A stretch of 64,000 nt of DNA from Bradyrhizobium sp. ORS 285. GTDB taxonomy: Bacteria; Pseudomonadota; Alphaproteobacteria; Rhizobiales; Xanthobacteraceae. The notes under the pieces were generated by a model, which saw only the letters and a program-made list of their open reading frames with translations, made no database searches and was not told the origin of the DNA. The stretch lies in NCBI RefSeq assembly GCF_900176205.1, contig NZ_LT859959.1:3741001-3805000 (forward strand), in the 5' to 3' direction. A program made the translations under genes and the position numbers. Positions 20,244-44,305 of the stretch are shown here, in pieces (within the stretch, counting starts at the first letter, position 1; each line of letters begins with the position of its first letter).

Positions 20244-20287
20244 ATACATGACAACCATCATGTATCTATATATATGATGACCATCAT
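20244..20287. promoter_or_regulatory. Operator pair between tetR and the SDR genes
   Basis: Site 1 has perfect 8-base arms ATACATGA (20244-20251) and TCATGTAT (20258-20265) around a 6-base spacer. Site 2, ATGATGACCATCAT (20274-20287), is palindromic except for its two central bases. Both lie in the AT-rich gap between divergent tetR and SDR genes, the usual position of a TetR-type operator. Confidence 0.6.
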
Positions 20288-20315
20288 TTATAAGTCAGGG
20301 AGCACTCTCTTGAGC

Positions 20316-21098
20316 ATGAAGCCTGCCGTCCTCGTGACTGGCTCGTCGACAGGGATCGGTGCCGTGTACGCCGATCGTTTTGCACGCCGCGGCCACGACC
20401 TCGTGCTGGTTGCGCGCAATTCCGCGCGTTTGGGCGCGCTGGCCGAGCGCCTCCGAAGCGAAACCGGTGTCTATGTGGATGTGGTGCCTGCCGACCTCAC
20501 CGACCCGCAAGACCTTGCCAGGATCGAGCAACGTCTGCGCGAGGATGCGCGCATTGGGGTGCTGGTCAACAATGCCGGCACAGCTATTCAAGGTGGCTTT
20601 CTGAGGCAACACGGTGAGGACTTGTCCAAACTGATCGCGCTCAACGTCACAGCCGTCACCAGGCTCGCCAACGCCGTCGCCCTGCGCCTTGCCGAGGCCG
20701 GAGAAGGCGCGATCATCAATCTCGCCTCGGTGGTCGGTCTCGCTCCGGAAATGAGTGCGACAGTGTACGGCGCGACTAAGGCGTTCGTGCTGTTCCTCTC
20801 TCAGGGACTTAGTATCGAACTGGCGCCCAAAGGGGTCTATGTCCAGGCGGTGCTACCTGCCGCAACCCGCACCGAGATCTGGGAGCATATCGGTGTCGAC
20901 GTCGATACGCTCCCCGGCGTGATGGAGGTGAGCAAGTTGGTCGATGCCGCGCTGGTCGGATTCGACCGCCGTGAACCCGTGACCATCCCGCCGCTGCCCG
21001 ATGCCTCCCAGTGGAGCGCCTTCGACGCCGCTCGCCAGATGATGTTGCCTAATTTTGCGCAGACCGAACCGGCCGAGCGCTATCAACCCGCCGCTTGA
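20316..21098 (+). CDS. Short-chain dehydrogenase/reductase
   Basis: Classical SDR of about 260 residues. The NAD(P) site is TGSSTGIGA, the adenine-stabilising motif is NNAGTA, the catalytic Ser is in NLASVVGL, and the Tyr-Lys pair is in YGATKA. The C-terminal part is less conserved. In-frame starts further up (20274) overlap operator site 2, so ATG 20316 (MKPAVLVTGS) is preferred; TTG 20310 is also possible. It forms an operon with the next SDR gene, 33 bases downstream, likely under the divergent TetR repressor. Confidence 0.9.
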   Translation: MKPAVLVTGSSTGIGAVYADRFARRGHDLVLVARNSARLGALAERLRSETGVYVDVVPADLTDPQDLARIEQRLREDARIGVLVNNAGTAIQGGFLRQHGEDLSKLIALNVTAVTRLANAVALRLAEAGEGAIINLASVVGLAPEMSATVYGATKAFVLFLSQGLSIELAPKGVYVQAVLPAATRTEIWEHIGVDVDTLPGVMEVSKLVDAALVGFDRREPVTIPPLPDASQWSAFDAARQMMLPNFAQTEPAERYQPAA

Positions 21099-21131
21099 CA
21101 GCACGAAACTGACTAAGCCCGTGGTGAAACA

Positions 21132-21947
21132 ATGAGAATGCAATCAGGAAAAGTCGCAATCGTGACCGGAGCCTCCTCGGGGATCGGCAAAGCCACCGCT
21201 GAGGCGATGGCGCGGGCGGGGTTCACAGTATTCGGGACAAGCCGTCGGGCAATTGATACTGGGCCGAAGCAGGTCACCATGCTGGTGTGCGATGTGACGA
21301 ATGACACATCGGTCAATGAGCTCGTCTCCGAGGTATTGTCACGGACCGGTCGGATCGATGTTCTGGTGAACAATGCTGGTCTCGGCCTATTTGGTGGGGC
21401 CGAGGAGTCATCCATCACGCAGGCAAAGTCTCTGTTCGAGGTCAACTTCTTCGGCCTCGTCCGCATGACCAATGCCGTTATGCCCTCGATGCGGAAGAAC
21501 GGTGGTGGACATATCGTCAATATCAGCTCGGTCCTCGGCTTCTTGCCCGCGCCATATTCGGCACATTACGGCGCGACCAAACACGCGGTCGAAGGATATT
21601 CCGAGTCGCTTGACCACGAGACCCGCGCGTTCGGTGTCCGCGTGACGCTGATCGAACCGGCCTTTACCAAAAGCTCCTTCGATCAGGCTGCCCTCAAGCC
21701 GGACACCATGTTGAAAGAATACGACGATGCCCGGGCCGGCATGGACAAGCTCGTCCAGCAGGCGATGACCATTGGAGACCCCCCGGAGGTGGTCGCCGAT
21801 ACCGTAGTTATGGCTGCAACAGCCGCACGCCCAAGGCGCCGCTATCCGGCCGGGAAGGCCGCGAGGCAAGTAAGCTTTGCACGTCGGTTCGTGCCCGCCG
21901 GGCTGTTTGACAAGAGCTTGCGCAAGCAGTTTGGTCTGCCGGTCTAG
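21132..21947 (+). CDS. Short-chain dehydrogenase/reductase
   Basis: Second SDR of the pair, 271 residues. Motifs are TGASSGIGKAT for cofactor binding, NNAGLG, the catalytic Ser in NISSVLG, and YGATKHAVEGYSESL with Tyr and Lys. The C-terminal tail ends RRFVPAGLFDKSLRKQFGLP, the pattern of many oxidoreductases annotated only as SDR family. It is distinct from its neighbour, so the operon probably encodes two steps or two specificities. The substrate is unknown. Confidence 0.9.
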   Translation: MRMQSGKVAIVTGASSGIGKATAEAMARAGFTVFGTSRRAIDTGPKQVTMLVCDVTNDTSVNELVSEVLSRTGRIDVLVNNAGLGLFGGAEESSITQAKSLFEVNFFGLVRMTNAVMPSMRKNGGGHIVNISSVLGFLPAPYSAHYGATKHAVEGYSESLDHETRAFGVRVTLIEPAFTKSSFDQAALKPDTMLKEYDDARAGMDKLVQQAMTIGDPPEVVADTVVMAATAARPRRRYPAGKAARQVSFARRFVPAGLFDKSLRKQFGLPV

Positions 21948-28903: not shown

Positions 28904-30136
28904 CTACGGCTTCTCGGGAATCGTGAAGACCTGGCCGGGATAGATCAGATCCGGACTGCGGATCTGCTCGCGGTTGGCCTTGTAGATCACGGCGTAGCGC
29001 ATGCCGCCGCCGAGCAGGCGCCGGCTGATGTGCCACAGGCTGTCGCCGCGCGCGACCGTCACCGTCGCCGCCTTCGGCTCGGGCTTGGCGGCCGGCAAGA
29101 TCGCCTCGCGCGGATCACCTGCGGCCGCGAGCAGCGTCGGCTGCGCCGCCGGGCGCGTCGTGTCGGTCGTGGATGCAGCAGCGGCCGAAGGCACCGATGC
29201 GGTCGTCGTCGGGTCGTCGGGCAGGCTCAGCGGCACCTCGGCACGCGCCTGGACGGAGCCCGAGGCGGCATCGACCTCGTCGAGCCTGATGCGGTCATCG
29301 CCGGCCCGGCTGAGGCCCTTGCCGACGGTGATGCCGAGCCGTCCATCGGCGGCCGCGACCGTCGACGAGATCAGCCGGTCGTTGAGATACAAACGCACCG
29401 TTGCGCCGGGACGCGCGCGACCATTGATGCGCAGCACGCCGTCCGACTCATGATCGACCGCGTCGACCCCCAGCGCCTGCGGGATCGCGGCACTCGGCTT
29501 GGAGAGCACGCGGGTGGGCTCATCCGGCGCCAGCAGCGCCACCGTTGCCGGCTGCCGGCTCGCCTCGATATTCACCGCGACGCTCTGCTTCGAGGTCACC
29601 TCGCGGCCATCGGCCAGCTTCGACTGCAGCGTCAGCTCATAGCTGCCGGCCGGAAGGCGGCGCGGCACCATGGCGAATTGCCCCGCCCGATCGGCGACGG
29701 CCCGGTCATGCACCTCGCCATTGCGCAACAGCTCGACCGTCGTGCCTGGCGCCGCACGCCCGGCAACGACAGCATCCCCTGAGGGATCCACATTGACCAC
29801 GTCGAACGCCGGCAGATCGGTCTGAACGGCCGACTGCGGAGCCAGCGAGCCAAGCACGTCGGCAAGGCCGCTGGCCTGCTGTTGCACCTTGGCGAGCGGG
29901 CTTGTCCCCTGCTGATTTGCCCCCTGCTCCTGCATGCGGCCTTGGCTGAGCCCGGCGTCGCGCAGTGCTCCGGCGGCCGCATTCGTCGGCTCACGCGCGG
30001 CTGTCGTTTCCTGCCCGTTGATCGCGGGATCGCGATTGGAGATCGGACCAAGCACGAACACGAACGCTGCGGCGGAGGCCGCAAGCGCCACCACGCCGAG
30101 GATGATCCCGACCATCGGCTTGCCGTTCAAGATCAT
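28904..30136 (-). CDS. LysM peptidoglycan-binding protein with Ig-like repeats (copy 1)
   Basis: A 410-residue protein with one N-terminal membrane helix (MVGIILGVVALAASAAAFVF), a low-complexity linker, two Ig-like repeats (around 120-205 with VVAGRAAPGTTVELLRNG, and 235-305 with INGRARPGATVRLYLNDR), and a C-terminal LysM domain (VARGDSLWHISRRLLG to IYPGQVFTIP). It should sit in the inner membrane and bind the cell wall. It has a same-length paralogue at 37741-38973, also on the minus strand, with DNA still clearly alike in the LysM part. Confidence 0.88.
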   Translation of the reverse strand: MILNGKPMVGIILGVVALAASAAAFVFVLGPISNRDPAINGQETTAAREPTNAAAGALRDAGLSQGRMQEQGANQQGTSPLAKVQQQASGLADVLGSLAPQSAVQTDLPAFDVVNVDPSGDAVVAGRAAPGTTVELLRNGEVHDRAVADRAGQFAMVPRRLPAGSYELTLQSKLADGREVTSKQSVAVNIEASRQPATVALLAPDEPTRVLSKPSAAIPQALGVDAVDHESDGVLRINGRARPGATVRLYLNDRLISSTVAAADGRLGITVGKGLSRAGDDRIRLDEVDAASGSVQARAEVPLSLPDDPTTTASVPSAAAASTTDTTRPAAQPTLLAAAGDPREAILPAAKPEPKAATVTVARGDSLWHISRRLLGGGMRYAVIYKANREQIRSPDLIYPGQVFTIPEKP

Positions 30137-32754: not shown

Positions 32755-32808
32755 ATACAGACAGTGACAATTGTCACCAGAACAGATTTACGCTTGAATT
32801 GTCTGTAT
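32755..32808. promoter_or_regulatory. Operator region of the divergent aminotransferase/MocR pair
   Basis: A perfect palindrome GTGACAATTGTCAC lies at 32764-32777. A second inverted pair, ATACAGACA (32755-32763) and TGTCTGTAT (32800-32808), brackets it, with the right arm reaching the MocR start codon. Such nested symmetry suggests autoregulation by the MocR protein. Confidence 0.55.
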
Positions 32809-34243
32809 GGACCGGCGCACACCTGCTCTGCCCCTCTACGAAGCTCTCGCCGACAGCGTAACGGCGCTCGTCGATGACGGCGTGTTGCGCGCCGGGATGC
32901 GCGCGCTTTCGGTCCGCAGCTTCGCGGCCCAGCACGGTGTCAGCCTGACGACCGCGCTGCAGACCTATCGCCTGCTGGAGGATCGCGGCGTGCTCGAGGC
33001 CCGGCCCAAATCCGGCTTCTACATTATGGCCAGGCCGCACCAGCAACGCCCGCTTCCGACAGCCTCGCAGCCGCCGTTGCGCGCCACGCAGGTCTCGGTC
33101 AGCAATCCCGTCTTCAGCGTGCTGTCCTACGCCAGCGATTTCTCCTATGCGCCGCTCGGCTGTGCGATTCCCAGCGCCGGCCTGCTCGCGGCCGAACGGC
33201 TCGACCGTCATCTCGCCCGCTGTGCGCGGGTCCACGGCCGCCGCTACAATCTCTACGCCGATCCTCATGGGGATGCCGAGCTGCGGGTCCAGATTTCCGA
33301 ACGGGCCTTGCGCCTGGGGCACGCGGTGGCCCCCGAGGGCGTGCTGATCACCAACGGCTGCACCGAGGCGCTGAACATCGCTCTGAGCGTGACCACCAGG
33401 CACGGCGACACCGTCGCCATCGAATCCCCGACCTATTTCGGCCTGCTGCAGGTGCTCGAGGCGCGCGGCCTGCGGGCGCTGGAGCTGCCGACCGATCCCG
33501 TGAACGGCATAGACGTTGCCGCGCTGGACAGGGTGCTCGGCGCGCGGCGCGTGTCGGCCTGCCTTCTGGCATCGAGCTTCAACAATCCGCTGGGTTACCG
33601 GACCGGCGATAAACGCAAGGCCGAAATCACCAAGGTGCTCACGCGTCACGGCGTCCCCTTGATCGAGGACGACATCTACGGCGACATCAGCTTCGGCGAA
33701 GAGCGGCCGCGCCCCTTCGCCGCGATCAGTCCGAAGGCCGACATCATCCTCTGCAGCTCGTTCTCCAAGACGATCGCGCCTGGCTATCGCATCGGCTGGC
33801 TTGCCGCCAATCACCGTCACGACCAGATCCTGGCGGCCAAGTTCGCGCTCTCGCTGAGCGGCGCGGCGCTGCCGCAGAAAGCGATGGCCGACTTCCTCGG
33901 CTCGGGCGGCTACGACGCCCATCTCAGGCGCATCCGCAAGGTGTTCGCCGGCAACGTCGACCGGATCCGACGCGTGGTCGATCGCAGCTTCCCGACAGCG
34001 ACGCGGATGACCAACCCGCAGGGCGGCTTCGTTCTCTGGCTGGAGCTGCCGAAGGGGTTCGACTCCGACGCGCTCTACGCCCGCGCCATCCGCGAGCGCA
34101 TCTGTTTCGTGCCCGGCGGGCTGTTCACCGCCAGCGGCGGCTATCGCAACTGCCTGCGACTGAGCTGCAGCCATGATTGGGACGCGCGCATCGAGCGCAG
34201 CGTCGCGCGGCTCGGCGAGCTGGCTCACGAGCTACTGGCATAG
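32807..34243 (+). CDS. MocR-type regulator (GntR helix-turn-helix plus aminotransferase domain)
   Basis: A 478-residue chimera: residues 1-75 form a GntR winged helix-turn-helix (SVRSFAAQHGVSLTTALQTYRLLEDRGVLEARPKSGFY), and residues 95-478 an aminotransferase-like PLP domain with NNPLGYR, EDDIYGDISF and the PLP lysine in CSSFSKTIAPGYRIGW. MocR proteins use PLP or its amino-acid adducts as signals. It is divergent from the aminotransferase gene and shares a palindromic operator with it. Confidence 0.92.
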   Translation: MDRRTPALPLYEALADSVTALVDDGVLRAGMRALSVRSFAAQHGVSLTTALQTYRLLEDRGVLEARPKSGFYIMARPHQQRPLPTASQPPLRATQVSVSNPVFSVLSYASDFSYAPLGCAIPSAGLLAAERLDRHLARCARVHGRRYNLYADPHGDAELRVQISERALRLGHAVAPEGVLITNGCTEALNIALSVTTRHGDTVAIESPTYFGLLQVLEARGLRALELPTDPVNGIDVAALDRVLGARRVSACLLASSFNNPLGYRTGDKRKAEITKVLTRHGVPLIEDDIYGDISFGEERPRPFAAISPKADIILCSSFSKTIAPGYRIGWLAANHRHDQILAAKFALSLSGAALPQKAMADFLGSGGYDAHLRRIRKVFAGNVDRIRRVVDRSFPTATRMTNPQGGFVLWLELPKGFDSDALYARAIRERICFVPGGLFTASGGYRNCLRLSCSHDWDARIERSVARLGELAHELLA

Positions 34244-34591
34244 ACCCTTGGCTCCGCAATAAGCGGCAATCGGTGCTGCGTTGAGGTCTCGCCGTCTCCA
34301 CTGTCGTTATGCTCCGCCACCCGGTCTGACCACCGGCAAGCTGGTAACCGTTACCCCTTGCTCGACATGGAACCAGAGGCTCAGCTCCGACGCAGACCTG
34401 CAGGGATGCGCAAAATTCCCGTAGAATAACGGGGTCTTCTCCGACGCCTCCTAAATCGACGCAACCAACGAGCGAACAGAAGACTATGGGAAAACCATAT
34501 TGGCCGCATGCTACCTAAGCATGTACATAGGAGTAGCGACCTATCCGTCACATCATGTTCTTTGACCTGATTCGCAAGGACGCTCGACTCG
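34244..34591. other. Intergenic region at the left edge of the Hachiman islet
   Basis: These 348 bases contain no recognisable gene. From about 34400 the composition shifts to the lower GC content of the hamA-hamB pair, so the left boundary of the acquired segment probably lies here. A short inverted repeat (GCATGC and related bases around 34507-34525) is the only structure seen. No integrase site, tRNA end or insertion sequence was found. Confidence 0.4.
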
Positions 34592-35515
34592 ATGCCCGGC
34601 CTCTCATTTGAAATCCTCGTTGATGACGCCCTAGCCGAAGTAACCTCCGCTTCCCAACTCGCGACGGCAGTCAACAAGAGAGTTCTCAGCCTAATCAACG
34701 ACTTTGAAGACGGCGAGTGGCGCTACCCAAAGTTTCAGAGCTACCTTTGGGACAATATTGCTCACACCGCTCTATCGCAAAGAGAGCGATCCGCATTGAT
34801 CGACCACAGTCATAGTAGCCTTATAGCCGCCGCCCAGAACCTCCGACTAACTGACAAGGACGAATTGGGCCAGGGCAGTGAGATAGCCGAAGTATTTTTG
34901 TACGGATTGATGCACCATCGCTTTGGCGCACTACCCGTTGTTCCAAAGATCTTCTACAAGCAAAACGTTCAAGACAACGCAAAAGGCGCAGACAGCGTCC
35001 ATATCGTGGTGAATGGGGACGACTTCACGCTTTGGTTCGGCGAGGCCAAATTCTACAACTCCATCGTCGATGCGAGATTAGACGCGATTGTAACCTCTGT
35101 ACTCAACTCGCTATCGACGGATAAACTCAAAAAAGAGAACGCAATAATCACAAGCGTCTCCGACCTAGATGGCCTGCCAATCGCCGCGAACGTTCGCGAA
35201 AAGATAAAGGCCGCCTTGAGCAATCGCGAGTCCATCGATTATCTAAAGCCCAAAATTCACATCCCAATTCTTCTGCTGCACGAATGCACAACAACCAAAG
35301 AGACAAAGGAATTATCAGAGCAGTACAAATCAAAGATAATTGCATATCATAAAGACCGAGCGGCTTCGTATTTCTCAAAGCAAATTGCAAAGTCTGGAGC
35401 AATTAACAAATACGACAAAATTAACTTTCATATTATTCTCTTCCCAGTTCCGAGCAAAAAAACAATCGTTGACGCATTTGTGCACGCAGTAGCTTTCTAT
35501 AAAGGGCAAACATAG
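34592..35515 (+). CDS. hamA: HamA: DUF1837 nuclease-like subunit of a Hachiman defence system
   Basis: A 307-residue DUF1837 protein, the defining HamA family of Hachiman anti-phage defence. PD-(D/E)xK nuclease residues are visible: E97 in the GSEIAE helix, D134 in NAKGADSVH, then E151 and K153 in LWFGEAKFY. In characterised Hachiman, HamA is a DNase held inactive by HamB and released when damaged or phage DNA is sensed. The codon usage is much richer in A and T than the neighbours (frequent AAA, ATA, TTA). The stop overlaps the hamB start by one base (TAGTG). The family match and residues are seen in sequence; activity is inferred. Confidence 0.85.
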   Translation: MPGLSFEILVDDALAEVTSASQLATAVNKRVLSLINDFEDGEWRYPKFQSYLWDNIAHTALSQRERSALIDHSHSSLIAAAQNLRLTDKDELGQGSEIAEVFLYGLMHHRFGALPVVPKIFYKQNVQDNAKGADSVHIVVNGDDFTLWFGEAKFYNSIVDARLDAIVTSVLNSLSTDKLKKENAIITSVSDLDGLPIAANVREKIKAALSNRESIDYLKPKIHIPILLLHECTTTKETKELSEQYKSKIIAYHKDRAASYFSKQIAKSGAINKYDKINFHIILFPVPSKKTIVDAFVHAVAFYKGQT

Positions 35516-37629
35516 TGGAAATTTTCGAGACTTGCCAGGAAATCAACGGGCTGTTGTCCGGGCGAAACGAGATGGCGGCTCGAAACCTACTGATTCGACT
35601 GCTAGCCGAACTAGAACGAACTAAGACGCCCTACCCTCAGCTTGTGAATCATATGATACGGGAAACTGGGCTGTTTCCTTATCTTCAGCTTGCCAGCGCA
35701 TCTTGGGACCAGAAATACGTCCACCATGCGTTTGAGGTCGACGTCGGCCGTCGGCTCGCAACTCTACACCGAGAACAATCAACAGTTCTTGCCAGGCTAC
35801 TAAATGGAAAGAGTATCGCTGTAAGCGCTCCAACAAGCTTCGGCAAGAGCTTCATAATAGACGCGTTCATAGCAGCAAAGCGCCCCGACACGGCCGTCAT
35901 TATAGTCCCAACCATCGCTTTAATGGACGAAACCCGAAGGCGGCTCTTTAAGAAGTTCTCCGAACATTACACCATTATAACCGCACCAGACACGCGTCTT
36001 GGCACAAAGAACATTCTGATCTTCCCTCCAGAGCGCGCATTTGGATATCTGAAGTTACTCGAACAAATTGACCTCCTCGTAGTAGACGAATTCTACAAGG
36101 CTAGCCAAGAGCACGACCCCGCCCGAGCCCCTGCACTTATCAAAGCCATTCTAAAGCTCTCCAAGAATGCCACTCAACGATACTACCTTGCCCCCAATAT
36201 AAAAACACTAAAGGATAATTTGTTCACGCGCGACATGGAGTTCATCGAACTCTTGGACTTCAATACAGTGTACCTAAATATTCAGGAGCCATATAAAGAG
36301 ATCAGAGGAGACATAGAGAAAAAAGGCGCAAAGCTAATAGAATTAATGTCTACCGATAAGCAGAAGTCGTTGATATATGCGGGAACCTATTCTGAGATCA
36401 GAAAGATCTCTGAACTTGTTGTAAAGCACCTCCCTCTCGTAGACCGGATATACACGTCATCTTTCGCAAAATGGCTCAGAATAAACTATCAATCCGACTG
36501 GACACTGGCCGACCTAGTTGAACGGGCCGTCGGAGTTCACAACGGCAGCATGCACAGATGCCTTAGTCAACTTCAGATAAAGCTATTTGAATACGAAGAT
36601 GGCTTCGACAGTATAATATCGACTTCATCAATCATCGAGGGGGTAAACACTTCTGCGCAGAATGTAGTTGTATGGCGAAGCAGAGCAGGAAGCACCAATC
36701 TAAAAGATTTTACATATAAGAACATCATCGGGCGCGGCGGCAGGATGTTCAAGTACTTCGTCGGCAACATCTACCTGCTAGACGCGCCACCGCGACCCGA
36801 GGACAACCAGCTTGACATTGTATTTCCGGACGAGATGCTCGGAACCTTGGACGAAGTCGGCGACGTAGAACAACTGACGGACCATCAACTCGAACGCATT
36901 ATCGAGTACAAGACCCAAATGGCCTCCATCATTGGGGAGCAGGAATTCGCTAGACTTAAGCGCGAGAATGTTTTGCAAGACAGCGACGCAGATTTTCTAC
37001 TGCGGCTAGCGAAAAACATGAAGGAAGCCCCCGAAGAGTGGAGGGGATTTGGCTATCTCAACTCTTCAAATCCTGCTGATTGGGACACAATGTTATTCAA
37101 AGTAATTGGCCTCAAACCGGCTGGATGGGATTCCGCATGGTCTAATGTGGTGAATGTCGCTAAAGCAATTGCTCACAACTGGCGCCGAGACCTACCTCAA
37201 ATCATTTCGTCTTTGAAGAACAACGGAATAAGCATCGAAGAATTCTTCAAGCTAGAACGCACGATTACATTCAAGCTGACCGCTCTTCTTAGCGACACCA
37301 ATGAGCTGCACAAAATAATCATTGACCCCTCTGTAGATATTTCAGGATTTATAGGGCGTATGAGTCGGGCATTTCTGCCGAGCGCAGTTTACCACCTAGA
37401 GGAGTACGGCCTTCCACGAATGATCTCGAAGAAGATCCATGCGGCCGGCTTAATCGATTTTGAGGAACCCGAGATGGATCTCAGCAATACGCTCGAACGC
37501 TTCAAGGCTCTGGGGAGAGAAACCGTGTTAGCCGTAAAATCTCTCGGTCCCTTCGATCGCTATGTAGTACGCTTCTTCTTTGACGGGATAACTCCTGACG
37601 AGCCGCAACTGGCAGAGGTCTCTGAATAG
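35515..37629 (+). CDS. hamB: HamB: superfamily 2 helicase of a Hachiman defence system
   Basis: A 704-residue superfamily 2 helicase in the Ski2/DEAD-like style. Motif I is SAPTSFGKSF at residues 104-113, motif Ia VPTIALMDE at 131-139, motif II DEFY at 191-194, motif IV SLIYAGTYSE near 285, motif V SSIIEGVNTSA near 371, and motif VI IIGRGGR at 404-410. The C-terminal 270 residues are helical and specific to the family. The GTG start overlaps the hamA stop, with AAAGGG upstream as ribosome binding site. In known systems HamB is an ATPase that guards HamA. AT-rich codon use matches hamA. The pair is complete; no third gene is present. Confidence 0.85.
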   Translation: MEIFETCQEINGLLSGRNEMAARNLLIRLLAELERTKTPYPQLVNHMIRETGLFPYLQLASASWDQKYVHHAFEVDVGRRLATLHREQSTVLARLLNGKSIAVSAPTSFGKSFIIDAFIAAKRPDTAVIIVPTIALMDETRRRLFKKFSEHYTIITAPDTRLGTKNILIFPPERAFGYLKLLEQIDLLVVDEFYKASQEHDPARAPALIKAILKLSKNATQRYYLAPNIKTLKDNLFTRDMEFIELLDFNTVYLNIQEPYKEIRGDIEKKGAKLIELMSTDKQKSLIYAGTYSEIRKISELVVKHLPLVDRIYTSSFAKWLRINYQSDWTLADLVERAVGVHNGSMHRCLSQLQIKLFEYEDGFDSIISTSSIIEGVNTSAQNVVVWRSRAGSTNLKDFTYKNIIGRGGRMFKYFVGNIYLLDAPPRPEDNQLDIVFPDEMLGTLDEVGDVEQLTDHQLERIIEYKTQMASIIGEQEFARLKRENVLQDSDADFLLRLAKNMKEAPEEWRGFGYLNSSNPADWDTMLFKVIGLKPAGWDSAWSNVVNVAKAIAHNWRRDLPQIISSLKNNGISIEEFFKLERTITFKLTALLSDTNELHKIIIDPSVDISGFIGRMSRAFLPSAVYHLEEYGLPRMISKKIHAAGLIDFEEPEMDLSNTLERFKALGRETVLAVKSLGPFDRYVVRFFFDGITPDEPQLAEVSE

Positions 37630-37740
37630 ATGTTGCGTATACGTGATCGTAGCGGCCGTCGAGAACGTTCTCCCCGGACGCTCCATCACGCCAGCGTGTA
37701 GGGAATGTCGCATGCTGGAGAAGGCAGTATCAAGCCGTCC

Positions 37741-38973
37741 CTATCGCTTCGCCGGCAACACGAACACCTGGCCGGGATAAATCAGGTCCGGCCGGCGGAT
37801 CTGTTCGCGGTTGGCGCGGTAGATGATGGCGTAGCGCGTGCCCTCGCCGAGCAGACGCCGGCTGATGTGCCACAGGCTGTCGCCACGCGACACGGTGATC
37901 GTCCTCGCGCCCGTGCGGCCGGGTGACGGCGCCATATCCTTGAGGTCGCCGGGCGAGGCCGATGCGAGCTGCGTGCGCGCGCCACTTCCCTGCCCTTGTT
38001 CCCGGCCCGCGGCCGCAGGCAGCGAGGCCGTGGTCAGCGCCTCCGGCACATTCAACGGCACCTCGGCGCGCGCCTGAACGGTGCCGGTCTTGGCATCGAC
38101 CTCGTCGAGCCGCAGCCGGTCCTTGCCGACCCAGGTCGCATCCTTGATGGTCGCCGCGATGCGGCCATCCGCACCGGCTGTCGTCGTGTTGACGAGCCGA
38201 TCGTTGAGATAGATCCGCACGGTCGCCCCGGGCCGGCCCCGGCCGCTGACGCGCAGATTGCCGTTCGGCTCGAAGTCGACGGCCTCGACCGCAACCGCCA
38301 GCGGCGCCGATGCGGCCGGCTTCGACAGGACGCGCGTCGCCTGGTCCGGCGCGATCACCGCAACGGTCGCCGGCCGCTTGCCAGCCTCGACCACCACCGC
38401 CACGCTCTGCTTGGACGACATCTCGCGGCCCTCCGGCTGCTTGGCCCGCAAGGTCAGCTCGAACGTCCCGGCCGGCAGCGGCGCCGGCACCATGGAGAAT
38501 TGCCCCGAGCGATCGGCGACCACTCGCGCATGCGGCTCGCCATTGCGCAACAACTCGACGGTCGCGCCGGGTGCAGCACGACCGGCTACGACGGTGTCGC
38601 CCGACGGCTCCACGCTGACCACATCAAATGACGGCCCGTCGCTCTCCGCCGCAGACGGCGCAACCGGTCCCAGCAGCGCAGCCAACCCGCTCGCCTGCTG
38701 CTGCGCCGTCGCCAGCGCGGCCGCGGCCTGGCTCGGAGCCCCCTTGCCTGCCGCGACCGGCTCAGCCGCCGCAGCGTGCTGCTGCGCAGCGGGCGCTCCG
38801 CCCGTCGGAGAGCTTGGCACCGCGGCATTCTGGCTCGCAGACGTCCCGTCACGCTTGAAGATCGAGAAATCGAGACCAAAGCCGTGCGCGACCGCGATGG
38901 CTACGCCTGCGATCGCCAGCACCGCAACGGCGCCGCCGCCCCAGATCAATCGTCCGCCGGTTCCGATGCTCAT
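37741..38973 (-). CDS. LysM peptidoglycan-binding protein with Ig-like repeats (copy 2)
   Basis: Paralogue of the 28904-30136 gene, also 410 residues. Layout: N-terminal membrane helix (LIWGGGAVAVLAIAGVAIAVA), an Ala/Gln-rich linker, Ig-like repeats with VVAGRAAPGATVELLRNG and VSGRGRPGATVRIYLNDR, and a C-terminal LysM domain with VSRGDSLWHISRRLLG and IYPGQVFVLP. The domain order and key phrases match copy 1 throughout. It likely anchors in the inner membrane and touches peptidoglycan. Its 3' end lies 111 bases from the Hachiman operon. Confidence 0.88.
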   Translation of the reverse strand: MSIGTGGRLIWGGGAVAVLAIAGVAIAVAHGFGLDFSIFKRDGTSASQNAAVPSSPTGGAPAAQQHAAAAEPVAAGKGAPSQAAAALATAQQQASGLAALLGPVAPSAAESDGPSFDVVSVEPSGDTVVAGRAAPGATVELLRNGEPHARVVADRSGQFSMVPAPLPAGTFELTLRAKQPEGREMSSKQSVAVVVEAGKRPATVAVIAPDQATRVLSKPAASAPLAVAVEAVDFEPNGNLRVSGRGRPGATVRIYLNDRLVNTTTAGADGRIAATIKDATWVGKDRLRLDEVDAKTGTVQARAEVPLNVPEALTTASLPAAAGREQGQGSGARTQLASASPGDLKDMAPSPGRTGARTITVSRGDSLWHISRRLLGEGTRYAIIYRANREQIRRPDLIYPGQVFVLPAKR

Positions 38974-39851
38974 GCGGTGATCCGTCCCTGTGCGAGCGCG
39001 AAGACGACGGCTCCGTCAGCGGGGAATCTCTCTTCGCTCATAACATCATGTAGGGCGGAATGCCATTGCTCGGCGGCCCGGGTCGCTCATCGAACCGCCC
39101 AACCTCCTCAAGTGTGACTTCGGCGCGTCGGGTAACGCAGGATCTGCCGCGGGACGTCATGGAGCCCAACCAGACGTCGTATGACGACACGCCCGGGCGC
39201 TTCCGGGATTCGGAAGAGATCGACGCACACGCAATTTTTCTCTTTCGCTTTTCCAGAATTGATGTATGATCCGCGCATCCTGCCTCGTTGCGAGGGACGT
39301 ACGCGTCGTCACGGACGTTGGGGCGGGGATGCGGTGGACGTGGCTGCGGTGCATGACGGGCATGGTGGCGCGGACGGCGAAGTCGCGTGGTCCTGACCTC
39401 CCGACGCTGAGGTCAAGTCGGTGCTGGCAGACGCAAGGCACTGATGACGGGGGCAAAAAAGCCCGGTCCCCGGGGAGATCGCGTATAAGCCGTAAAACCA
39501 TCGCGCGGGGAATGCTGGGTCGAACCGGCTGAACCTGTGGTGACTGCCGCCTGCTTATTCTTCTGCAGGCGGGCCATGGGTGAGGCCTTCACCCGGCATT
39601 CCCCGCGCCCTCCTCTTGAGGGCTCGCTGCCGAAACACTCGGGCGCCGGCGCGCTGCGAGATCAATTCTGCACGTTGCCGCGCACATCGTCGACCTCTGT
39701 ACTCGTCCCACCCGCAAAGCCGAACGCACAATGCGTAATCATACGGTGCCCAGGCTTTACGCAAGGTTTAACGATCGGTGGCTCTCTTGCGCTTGTTCCA
39801 GAGTGGGAATTTCGAATCCGAATGCAATGATGCAGCAGGAGACCATTACGC
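38974..39851. other. Non-coding region with interspersed repeat
   Basis: A gap of 878 bases between the LysM gene and the chemotaxis gene. The part from about 39290 to 39640 is a Bradyrhizobium-type interspersed repeat. Bases 38974-39280 hold no gene that I recognise, and the final 200 bases should contain the promoter of the chemotaxis gene. The small open frames here are by-products of the repeat. Confidence 0.6.
39290..39640. repeat. Bradyrhizobium-type interspersed repeat with large hairpin
   Basis: The segment with GCGTATAAGCCGTAAAACC followed by an inverted pair resembles a repeat scattered through Bradyrhizobium genomes. The outer arms are GCGCGGGGAATGCTGGGT (39503-39520) and ACCCGGCATTCCCCGCGC (39591-39608), matching at 17 of 18 bases. 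The inner arms are CCGCCTGC (39547-39554) and GCAGGCGG (39565-39572). It could form a long cruciform or RNA hairpin. Family recognition is from memory of such genomes; exact ends are uncertain. Confidence 0.65.
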
Positions 39852-42012: not shown

Positions 42013-42555
42013 TCACCGCCCGATCTGCCGGATCGGGCGGCCCTGGCTGATGAAGGCGTAATGGCCGGCGCCGATGCCGCCGACCATCAGCGCCTCGACC
42101 ACCGGCTCGGCGATCTCGCCGGTCGCGGCCCAGTCGACGACGAAATTGGCGCCGGTGCCGCCGCGGGTGTCCTTGGTCGGGACGAAGATCTCGATCGTCG
42201 CGAACGGCTTCAAGGCGACCGGCGCAGCGAGGTGGGCTTCGACCAGCGCGCCGGCCGTGTCGTAATAGTTGATGCGCCGGATGATCAACGGCCGCTGCTC
42301 GGAGGCGTTGTGGATGCTCAGGGTGACGGAGAAATCGGCCTGGATCCTGCCGGGCGTCATCGCGACGCTGGAATAGACGGGAACATAGACCGCGCCCGTC
42401 ACGGTCGCCGCCTCGGCCGGAACCGCGGTCAGCGAGCTCGCAAAGGCGGTCGTCACGCTGTCGGCGGCCCGTGCAACGCCACCTGCGAGCCACAGCGCGA
42501 GGAGCGCCGTCCCGATGTGACAGATTGCGGGTTTCCTTGTGCGGCGGCGCGACAT
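42013..42555 (-). CDS. DUF3124 exported protein
   Basis: A 180-residue protein with a signal peptide (ALLALWLAGGVARAA, cleavage near residue 31) and a DUF3124 domain. Family features are YVPVYSSV, LSIHNASEQRPLIIRRINYYDT, and the closing GGTGANFVVDW and EALMVGG segments. The function of DUF3124 is unknown; a periplasmic location is expected. ATG 42555 gives the best signal peptide. Its start is only 25 bases from the divergent start of the KefB-like gene, so the two share one short control region. Confidence 0.82.
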   Translation of the reverse strand: MSRRRTRKPAICHIGTALLALWLAGGVARAADSVTTAFASSLTAVPAEAATVTGAVYVPVYSSVAMTPGRIQADFSVTLSIHNASEQRPLIIRRINYYDTAGALVEAHLAAPVALKPFATIEIFVPTKDTRGGTGANFVVDWAATGEIAEPVVEALMVGGIGAGHYAFISQGRPIRQIGR

Positions 42556-42580
42556 AAGTTGCCGCCCCGGGGGTTGCTTC

Positions 42581-44305
42581 ATGCATGAACTGATCGGCGA
42601 CATCACGCTCTGCATCCTGTTTGCGTGGGTGCTTGGACTGGCCGCGCATCGCTGGCGCCAGCCCTCGATTCTCGCTTATCTGGTCGCGGGCTTCGCCATT
42701 GGCCCCTTCGGCACCGGCTGGGTCAAGTCCCAGGAATCGATCTCGGTGATCTCCGAGCTCGGCCTGATCTTCATGCTGTTCATGATCGGGCTCGAAATCG
42801 ACCTGAAGAAGATCATCCGCGCCGGCCCGGTGATCCTCATTGCGGGCGGCGTCCAGCTGCTCGGCGGCGCCGCGCTCGGCATCCTGTTCTTCGTCGCCAT
42901 CGGCATGCGGATGGGCGCCGAGAGCTACGACGCGCTGTATCTGTGCGTCGCCTGTGCGCTGTCCTCGACCGTCATCATCGTCAAGGTGCTGTACGAGAAG
43001 CGCGAGCTCGACACCCTGCCCGGCCGCATCACGCTCGGCGTGCTGGTCTTGCAGGACGTATTCGCGATCCTGTTCCTGGCGGTGCAGCCGAGCCTCGACG
43101 ACCTGCACTTTGGCGTCATCCTGCTTTCCTTCGCCCGCGCCGGTACGCTGGTCGCGATCGCGCTGCTGCTCAGCCGCTATGTGCTGCCGCCGGTGTTCCA
43201 CCGCATCGCGCGAACCCCCGAGCTGATCCTGCTCGGCGCGCTCGCCTGGTGCTTCCTGATCGGCGAGATCGCCGAGCGCCTGCACCTGTCGCGCGAGATG
43301 GGCTCGCTGATCGCCGGCGTGTCGCTGTCGACCTTTCCTTACGCGCTCGACGTCACCGCCAAGGTCACGACCCTGCGTGATTTCTTCATCACGCTGTTCT
43401 TCGTCGCCCTCGGCATGACCATCCCGATCCCGACCATGTCGGTGGTCGGGCTGGCGCTGGTGATCGCGCTGTTCACGGTGGCGAGCCGGCTCGTCACCAC
43501 CTTCACGCCGCTCTACATGATGCGTCAGGGCTTGCGCGCGAGTCTGTTGCCGGCGCTCAACCTCGCCCAGATCAGCGAGTTCTCGCTGGTGGTGATCCAG
43601 ACCGGTGCGGCCGCCGGACATCTGAAGACCGGCACCTCGGCCGCGGCATCCTTCGCCTTCGTGCTGCTCGCGGTGCTCTCGACCTTCGTCATCGTGCGCT
43701 CCGATCCGATCGTGCGGCGGACGATTCCGCTGCTGAAGCGCGTCGGCCTGCATGACCTCGACGCAAGCAAGGACGGCGAAGCCGGCCACGAGGGCGGCCA
43801 TGCCGGCCGGCCGATCGTGCTGCTCGGCTTCTTCCGCACCGCCAGCGCCCTGCTCAGCGAGATCGAACGCAATGAGCCAGCGCTGCTGGAGCAGATCGGC
43901 GTCGTCGACTTCAATCCGGTGGTGTTCCGCACCCTCTCCGATCGCGGCATCCAGGTGACCTATGGCGACATCAGCAATGTCGATACGCTGGTGCATGCCG
44001 GCGTCGGACAGGCCGAGCTGATCATCCTCAGCATTCCGGATTCGCTGCTCAAGGGCGCCAACAACGAAAAGCTGGTGCGGCATGTCCGCAGCATCAACGC
44101 CACGGCCAAGATCGTCGCGACCGCGGATCTGCTCGCCGATGTCAACGACCTCTACGAGGCCGGCGCAGATTATGTGACCGTACCGCGGCTCAGCGATGCG
44201 CACGTGCTGCTCAATCTGATCCAGGACGCGAGCGCGGGCCTGTTGTCGGAGCGGCGCAGCCAGGCCGAAGCCATGCTCGCCGACCGCCGCGAGGTGCTGC
44301 CGTGA
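42581..44305 (+). CDS. KefB-like cation:proton antiporter (CPA2) with RCK domain
   Basis: A 574-residue protein. Residues 1-385 are a CPA2 monovalent cation/proton antiporter domain with about twelve helices, including the GLIFMLFMIGLEIDLKKI segment and LALNLAQISEFSLVV-type motif near 335. Residues 410-530 are a TrkA-N/RCK nucleotide-binding domain (IVLLGFFRTASALLSEIE, DFNPVVFRTL, VTYGDISNVDTL). The expected role is K+ or Na+ efflux and pH control. ATG 42581 (MHELIGDITL) is the natural start. It is divergent from the DUF3124 gene. Confidence 0.9.
   Translation: MHELIGDITLCILFAWVLGLAAHRWRQPSILAYLVAGFAIGPFGTGWVKSQESISVISELGLIFMLFMIGLEIDLKKIIRAGPVILIAGGVQLLGGAALGILFFVAIGMRMGAESYDALYLCVACALSSTVIIVKVLYEKRELDTLPGRITLGVLVLQDVFAILFLAVQPSLDDLHFGVILLSFARAGTLVAIALLLSRYVLPPVFHRIARTPELILLGALAWCFLIGEIAERLHLSREMGSLIAGVSLSTFPYALDVTAKVTTLRDFFITLFFVALGMTIPIPTMSVVGLALVIALFTVASRLVTTFTPLYMMRQGLRASLLPALNLAQISEFSLVVIQTGAAAGHLKTGTSAAASFAFVLLAVLSTFVIVRSDPIVRRTIPLLKRVGLHDLDASKDGEAGHEGGHAGRPIVLLGFFRTASALLSEIERNEPALLEQIGVVDFNPVVFRTLSDRGIQVTYGDISNVDTLVHAGVGQAELIILSIPDSLLKGANNEKLVRHVRSINATAKIVATADLLADVNDLYEAGADYVTVPRLSDAHVLLNLIQDASAGLLSERRSQAEAMLADRREVLP

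Follow-up and report, generated by a model that had tools for sequence, protein, structure and literature searches.

A complete, probably working Hachiman (HamA-HamB) anti-phage operon carried as a foreign insert in a Bradyrhizobium chromosome

Two overlapping genes, hamA and hamB, lie between a gene for a MocR-type regulator and a gene for a LysM protein in the window, the 64,000-nucleotide stretch of the Bradyrhizobium sp. ORS 285 genome that was analysed (Table 1). Hachiman is a known defence encoded by two genes: a helicase that detects broken DNA activates a partner that cuts DNA. An earlier note, made from the letters alone, had read the two genes as a complete, undisrupted and stand-alone Hachiman pair in a rhizobial-type chromosome, and the host is indeed a Bradyrhizobium. 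Both frames were open over the coordinates given there and had kept their catalytic residues. The one-base overlap that had been described was also present, hamA ending and hamB beginning at position 35515 in the junction TAGTG. In the frame of hamB, the preceding stop is a TAA at 35500, and no start codon follows it in frame before the GTG at 35515.

Table 1. Features of the locus in window coordinates, and the inserts occupying the same slot in three other genomes in the coordinates of the loci named
Feature	Position	Strand	Description	Basis
MocR-type regulator gene	32807-34243		upstream of hamA	
Inserted interval	34237..37738	.	compared with G289 (L207), where 42 bases separate the MocR and LysM matches	
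Stretch upstream of hamA	34244..34591	.	presumably holds the promoter	position, promoter scan, comparison
hamA	34592..35515	+	307 aa, ATG start	ORF call, PADLOC and Pfam profiles, alignment, predicted fold
hamB	35515..37629	+	704 aa, compact Ski2-like SF2 helicase, GTG start	ORF call, profiles, alignment, fold
LysM protein gene	37741-38973	-	downstream of hamB, opposite to hamAB	
G219 slot insert	L203 3377-7391		1062-aa protein with methyltransferase, AAA/NACHT-like and TPR matches	
G305 slot insert	L204 4650-7581		DUF4279 protein and an unmatched ORF	
G218 slot insert	L208 3682-7415		DUF6602/NucC-like nuclease and an unmatched 274-aa ORF	

The HamA protein matched the PADLOC HamA profile (E 7.7e-144) over almost its whole length, and its sole Pfam domain was PF08878 (DUF1837/HamA), at 192.3 bits against a cut-off of 25. 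The canonical HamA motif is given as D-GEXK (PMC12799240) or D-E(X)K (PMC12278908) in the parts of these papers that were available, and the window protein has D-GEXK in the form of D134 and G150-E151-A152-K153. E97, D134, G150, E151 and K153 were invariant across 33 aligned HamA sequences. The DUF1837 character and the nuclease order E97, D134, E151-x-K153 proposed earlier were thus borne out by the PF08878 match and by the residues at these positions. A fold search with the predicted structure matched solved Hachiman nucleases and returned no contrary fold, in agreement with the expected PD-(D/E)xK fold. Against the PDB, the single sequence had a best E of 0.53, which is chance level, and a profile of the 33 sequences had no match up to E 1. 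K178 and K181, also invariant in the 33 sequences, fit the pattern (R/K)xx(R/K), the published HamA interface motif, as a pattern match only.

The HamB protein matched the PADLOC HamB profile with an E of 1.4e-220 over residues 1-693, and Pfam gave it a DEAD helicase domain. With E-values of this order for HamA and HamB, a chance match was excluded. SAPTSFGKS at 104-112, which contains K111, DEFY at 191-194, which is motif II, and STSSIIEGVNT at 369-379 were invariant in 28 aligned HamB sequences, while GRGGRM at 406-411 was largely so. The proposal that the helicase motifs I to VI are all intact therefore stood for these four segments, but a canonical SAT motif III was not visible in the HamB sequence; YYLAPN at 223 is likely its equivalent. 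The predicted structure had N-terminal helices at residues 2-15, 19-35 and 42-51, and its structural alignments to 8zue_B and 8vxa_A start at residue 1, a range that gives the ends only. Hachiman HamB proteins have an N-terminal helical HamA-binding region (NAH).

The pair stands alone as far as a PADLOC scan of 50 of the 51 called window genes goes; in place of the remaining gene, 42061-42588, the opposite-strand ORF 42016-42615 was scanned. Among the best 25 of 33 families, the matches outside the pair looked generic, examples being a fragment of a helicase gene at the edge of the window and cysteine desulfurases that are listed under DndA/SspA; mad3 and mad8 were matched as well. A further listing covered the best 25 of 71 families.

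The composition of the two genes set them apart from their surroundings. The GC content was 0.43-0.52 in 500-base windows from 34500 to 37499 versus 0.59-0.73 in the others between 27000 and 42999. In a codon-usage comparison of 40 of the 51 called window genes, hamA and hamB had the two largest distances, 0.361 and 0.355, the next being 0.224 and the median 0.119.

The site itself was sought in 265 genomes of the genus, of which an earlier pass had covered only 117. The MocR gene was intact, with 83-87% identity, in six other genomes, and in all six the LysM gene lay further along (68-88% identical). Three of them, G226, G289 and G227, were clean empty sites: MocR and LysM were intact, the flank matches were 19, 42 and 111 bases apart, respectively, and the stretches between gave no HamA or HamB match in tblastn. 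The DNA identity of G289 to the window reached up to 90% beyond the LysM gene. The borders of the insert were nearly the same when taken against G226 (34245-37744) and G227 (34254-37741), and hamA and hamB were its only called genes. Since three genomes of the same genus have both neighbours intact and no hamAB between them, the pair was interpreted as an insertion. In a further genome, G065, only 55 bases precede the LysM gene, but what is left of the MocR gene contains an internal TGA, so that this genome proved little as evidence of an empty site.

The other three genomes, G219, G305 and G218, held other DNA in the same slot (4015, 2932 and 3734 bases), with a GC content of 0.53, 0.57 and 0.56, respectively, compared with 0.67-0.69 in the surroundings, and hamAB was absent from all three. 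The DUF6602 protein of G218 matched the PADLOC families PD_DExK (E 2.3e-41) and NucC (E 3.5e-23). Among the eight genomes with the locus, the slot was thus empty or nearly so in four, carried Hachiman in one and had other low-GC DNA in three. The three empty sites and three other low-GC inserts make the slot look like a small cargo hot spot. We tentatively suggest, at somewhat short of an even chance, that in one group of Bradyrhizobium the MocR-LysM gap serves as a small hot spot for defence cargo, where single-operon inserts replace one another. If so, the unnamed cargo of the slot would be a source of candidate new anti-phage genes. The slot, vacant in some close relatives and differently occupied in others, may also lead to more defence genes. 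A search for border repeats found no exact 9-base word common to 34225-34592 and 37630-37745, and no recombinase gene was recognised in the window insert or among the five ORFs scanned in the G219, G305 and G218 inserts. The window contained no tRNA and no Rfam family at the gathering threshold.

Several other features of this region were recorded. The MocR-type gene is rare, with matches at E <= 1e-60 in 13 of the 265 genus genomes and at least 83% identity in seven, own genome included. Two 410-aa LysM proteins, encoded at 28904-30136 and at 37741-38973 (minus strand), are 62% identical over 326 columns and bracket three PLP-enzyme or MocR-type genes together with hamAB; both proteins occur in G226 as well. 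Two adjacent genes at 20274-21947, with a GC content of 0.60-0.62, ranked directly behind hamAB in codon-usage distance and are possibly another acquired pair. Finally, 39234-39650 is a dispersed repeat built around a long, GC-rich palindrome, with a folding energy of -80.6 kcal/mol (z -8.05) for 39480-39620. The repeat had at least 41 matches in the own genome, where 40 of 157 candidates were scored, and no Rfam family at the gathering threshold; two copies lie upstream of hamAB in B. embrapense (L003).

A protein search with a cut-off of E <= 1e-5 gave 2885 relatives of HamA, and identity was 70-100% among the top 120. Scanning one genome per species gave 56 loci. Judged by record title, about half were from Alphaproteobacteria, and the others came from further Proteobacteria, from Bacteroidota and from a few additional groups. 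The own genome, a single contig of 7.8 Mb, encodes one PF08878 protein, and some PF08878 protein was present in 40 of the 265 genus genomes. The window type of hamAB occurred in six genus genomes, own included: five of 30 PF08878 stretches examined were of this type, and among the 29 loci outside the own genome, window-like hamAB DNA was found in the same five genomes. A HamA search of 149 genomes gave five with a match; apart from the own genome, these were four distant matches of 23-30% identity.

In Bradyrhizobium sp. CSS354, B. embrapense and B. sacchari, HamA is 83-86% and HamB 82-83% identical to the window proteins, with the same lengths and junction offset. These three also offer a start at offset -3, whereas the window has TAG as the hamA stop and ATA as the codon preceding the GTG. 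In five Bradyrhizobium loci and Afipia, the DNA match to the window began at most 3 bases before hamA or inside it. Its other end lay in a range from 28 bases upstream to 8 bases downstream of the hamB stop, except in L005, a broken copy, where it came sooner. Matches beyond hamAB were limited to the dispersed repeat (L003 and L135 of the same genome) and a piece of a chemotaxis gene (L014, L129), and L148 had a short reverse-strand match within hamB. Since the sole outside match of CSS354, B. embrapense and B. sacchari was the dispersed repeat of B. embrapense, their sites differ from that of the window. Among themselves, the other Bradyrhizobium carriers have about 70-105 upstream bases in common, L164 and L165 more, and L165 and L167 a further 332-base piece. 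Across one genus (L154-L183), HamB-like helicases of about 700, 820-850, 860-890 and 1140 aa, as well as shorter frames, adjoin HamA-like proteins.

This distribution bears on whether the genes might be a host helicase-nuclease pair for DNA repair or recombination rather than a defence. HamB resembles Hel308 and the DNA polymerase theta helicases, and Hachiman itself responds to DNA damage, according to the available part of PMC12278908. A repair pair would have to be reconciled with the patchy occurrence in 149 genomes, own included, in which only four others matched at low identity, with the restriction of the window type to six genus genomes, with the foreign codon usage and with the absence of the pair from three otherwise intact sites, so that this explanation is exceedingly improbable.

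The 56 loci from the scan of one genome per species also showed how often hamB is interrupted. A HamB ORF of at least 690 aa was present in 41 of the 56 loci, three were at or near a contig end inside hamB, and two had no HamB match (L054, where the contig ends soon after hamA, and L055, which has part of hamA only). The remaining ten had an interrupted hamB (L005, L010, L031, L040-L044, L053, L056), although sequencing errors could account for some of these interruptions, as could a different genetic code in L053, a Peribacteria bin. In eight of the ten, a full-length hamA ORF remained, which fits HamA being harmless without HamB. Such losses, together with two properties of the stretch upstream of hamA, namely that no sigma-70-like site was found in it and that no counterpart of it precedes hamA in the relatives compared, are what one might expect if the window copy were intact yet unexpressed or no longer functional. 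Because the promoter scan covers one promoter type only, and neither frame is disrupted nor any catalytic residue lost, a silent copy is unlikely.

The profiles and the predicted folds, like the active site and the order of the genes, point to Hachiman, as the earlier note had proposed, and the type is, as it also said, an established one, of which this is an intact member. It is highly probable that the locus is a complete, probably working Hachiman (HamA-HamB) anti-phage operon, brought into the Bradyrhizobium chromosome as a foreign insert of about 3.5 kb. The TAGTG overlap would couple the translation of HamA and HamB. By analogy with published Hachiman systems, HamB would restrain HamA while scanning DNA. 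On meeting a free 3' end, HamB would hydrolyse ATP, alter its shape and release the PD-(D/E)xK nuclease HamA, which would then degrade the DNA of both phage and host and thereby kill the infected cell before phage release. The locus is one more intact member of a very large family, whose published mechanism rests on the E. coli and P. fluorescens systems, as far as the available parts of the papers go. Judged by titles and abstract openings, none of the papers retrieved on Hachiman in Bradyrhizobium or on defence hot spots in this genus dealt with the present system or with the MocR-LysM slot.

Among the known forms of the system, the nuclease-protease Hachiman (HamMAB) has a trypsin-like protease fused to its HamA, whereas Pfam found no protease domain in the window HamA, and the upstream gene is MocR-like. 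Type II Hachiman in PADLOC needs hamC, a DUF3223 gene beside hamAB (PMC8565338, in the part available). DUF3223 (PF11523) had no match in the own genome in a search that was positive in 1 of 13 genomes and in 0 of 14 controls, and the locus it yielded, L194, had no overlap with the L006 stretch. HamB scored highest against a HamB2 model, its 732 bits being slightly ahead of the 711 bits of the top type I model; HamA scored highest against a type I model, also by a small margin. Without a DUF3223 match in the own genome, the window system is type I by gene content. The Hachiman of E. coli ECOR31, for which structures are available (PDB 8VX9, 8VXA, 8VXC, 8VXY; PMC12278908), differs in size, its chain 8vxa_A having 1139 residues compared with 704 in the window HamB, and in motif II, which is DEGH rather than DEFY; a sequence search of the PDB with the window proteins did not find its chains.

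The closest solved chain to HamB by sequence was instead 8zue_B, 'Anti-bacteriophage protein B', of 729 residues. Its printed residues agree with K-12 AbpB (b2627, 729 aa), so 8zue appears to be the E. coli AbpAB. K-12 AbpB is 30% identical to the window HamB over 425 columns and its motif II is also DEFY. In a tree of 47 helicases, the compact HamB proteins formed one clade of 34 rows (support 99/99) that holds AbpB, the window's group, the L173 and L174 helicases, which adjoin a 283-aa HamA, and L175 and L176, which are Bradyrhizobium helicases beside Cap4-HamA proteins in which Cap4 was confirmed; no firm branching order emerged within the clade. The grouping of K-12 AbpB with the latter two had support of 68/34 and was neither supported nor rejected; K-12 AbpB is on a long branch, and the tree carried warnings on long branches and letter make-up. 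This kinship raises the possibility that the window pair is itself of the AbpAB type, in which the helicase would be AbpB-like and its partner would kill by means of a different nuclease domain, leaving the HamA domain a purely structural part. K-12 AbpA (b2628) has 538 aa, with Cap4 in front of a degenerate HamA domain, but the window HamA has 307 aa, the HamA domain only, and an intact site, and BLASTP gave no meaningful match between the two. Moreover, Cap4 was present in K-12 AbpA, L175 and L176, all of which lack the HamA site. D134, E151 and K153 were kept in all other HamA rows apart from L177 and L183, which are partial or misaligned rows where D134 is not shown; E97 is replaced by D in L178-L180. 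An AbpAB-type reading is thus very improbable. According to the available part of PMC12799240, virtually all protease-HamA fusions have lost the motif.

Judging from the tree and the aligned sites, the window HamB belongs to a compact lineage that also holds AbpB, and its HamA keeps the active site lost in AbpA. The pair is therefore a related, intact comparison for AbpAB rather than a new idea, and, being compact, catalytically intact and grouped with AbpB, it would test both the reach of the sensing model and the origin of AbpAB.
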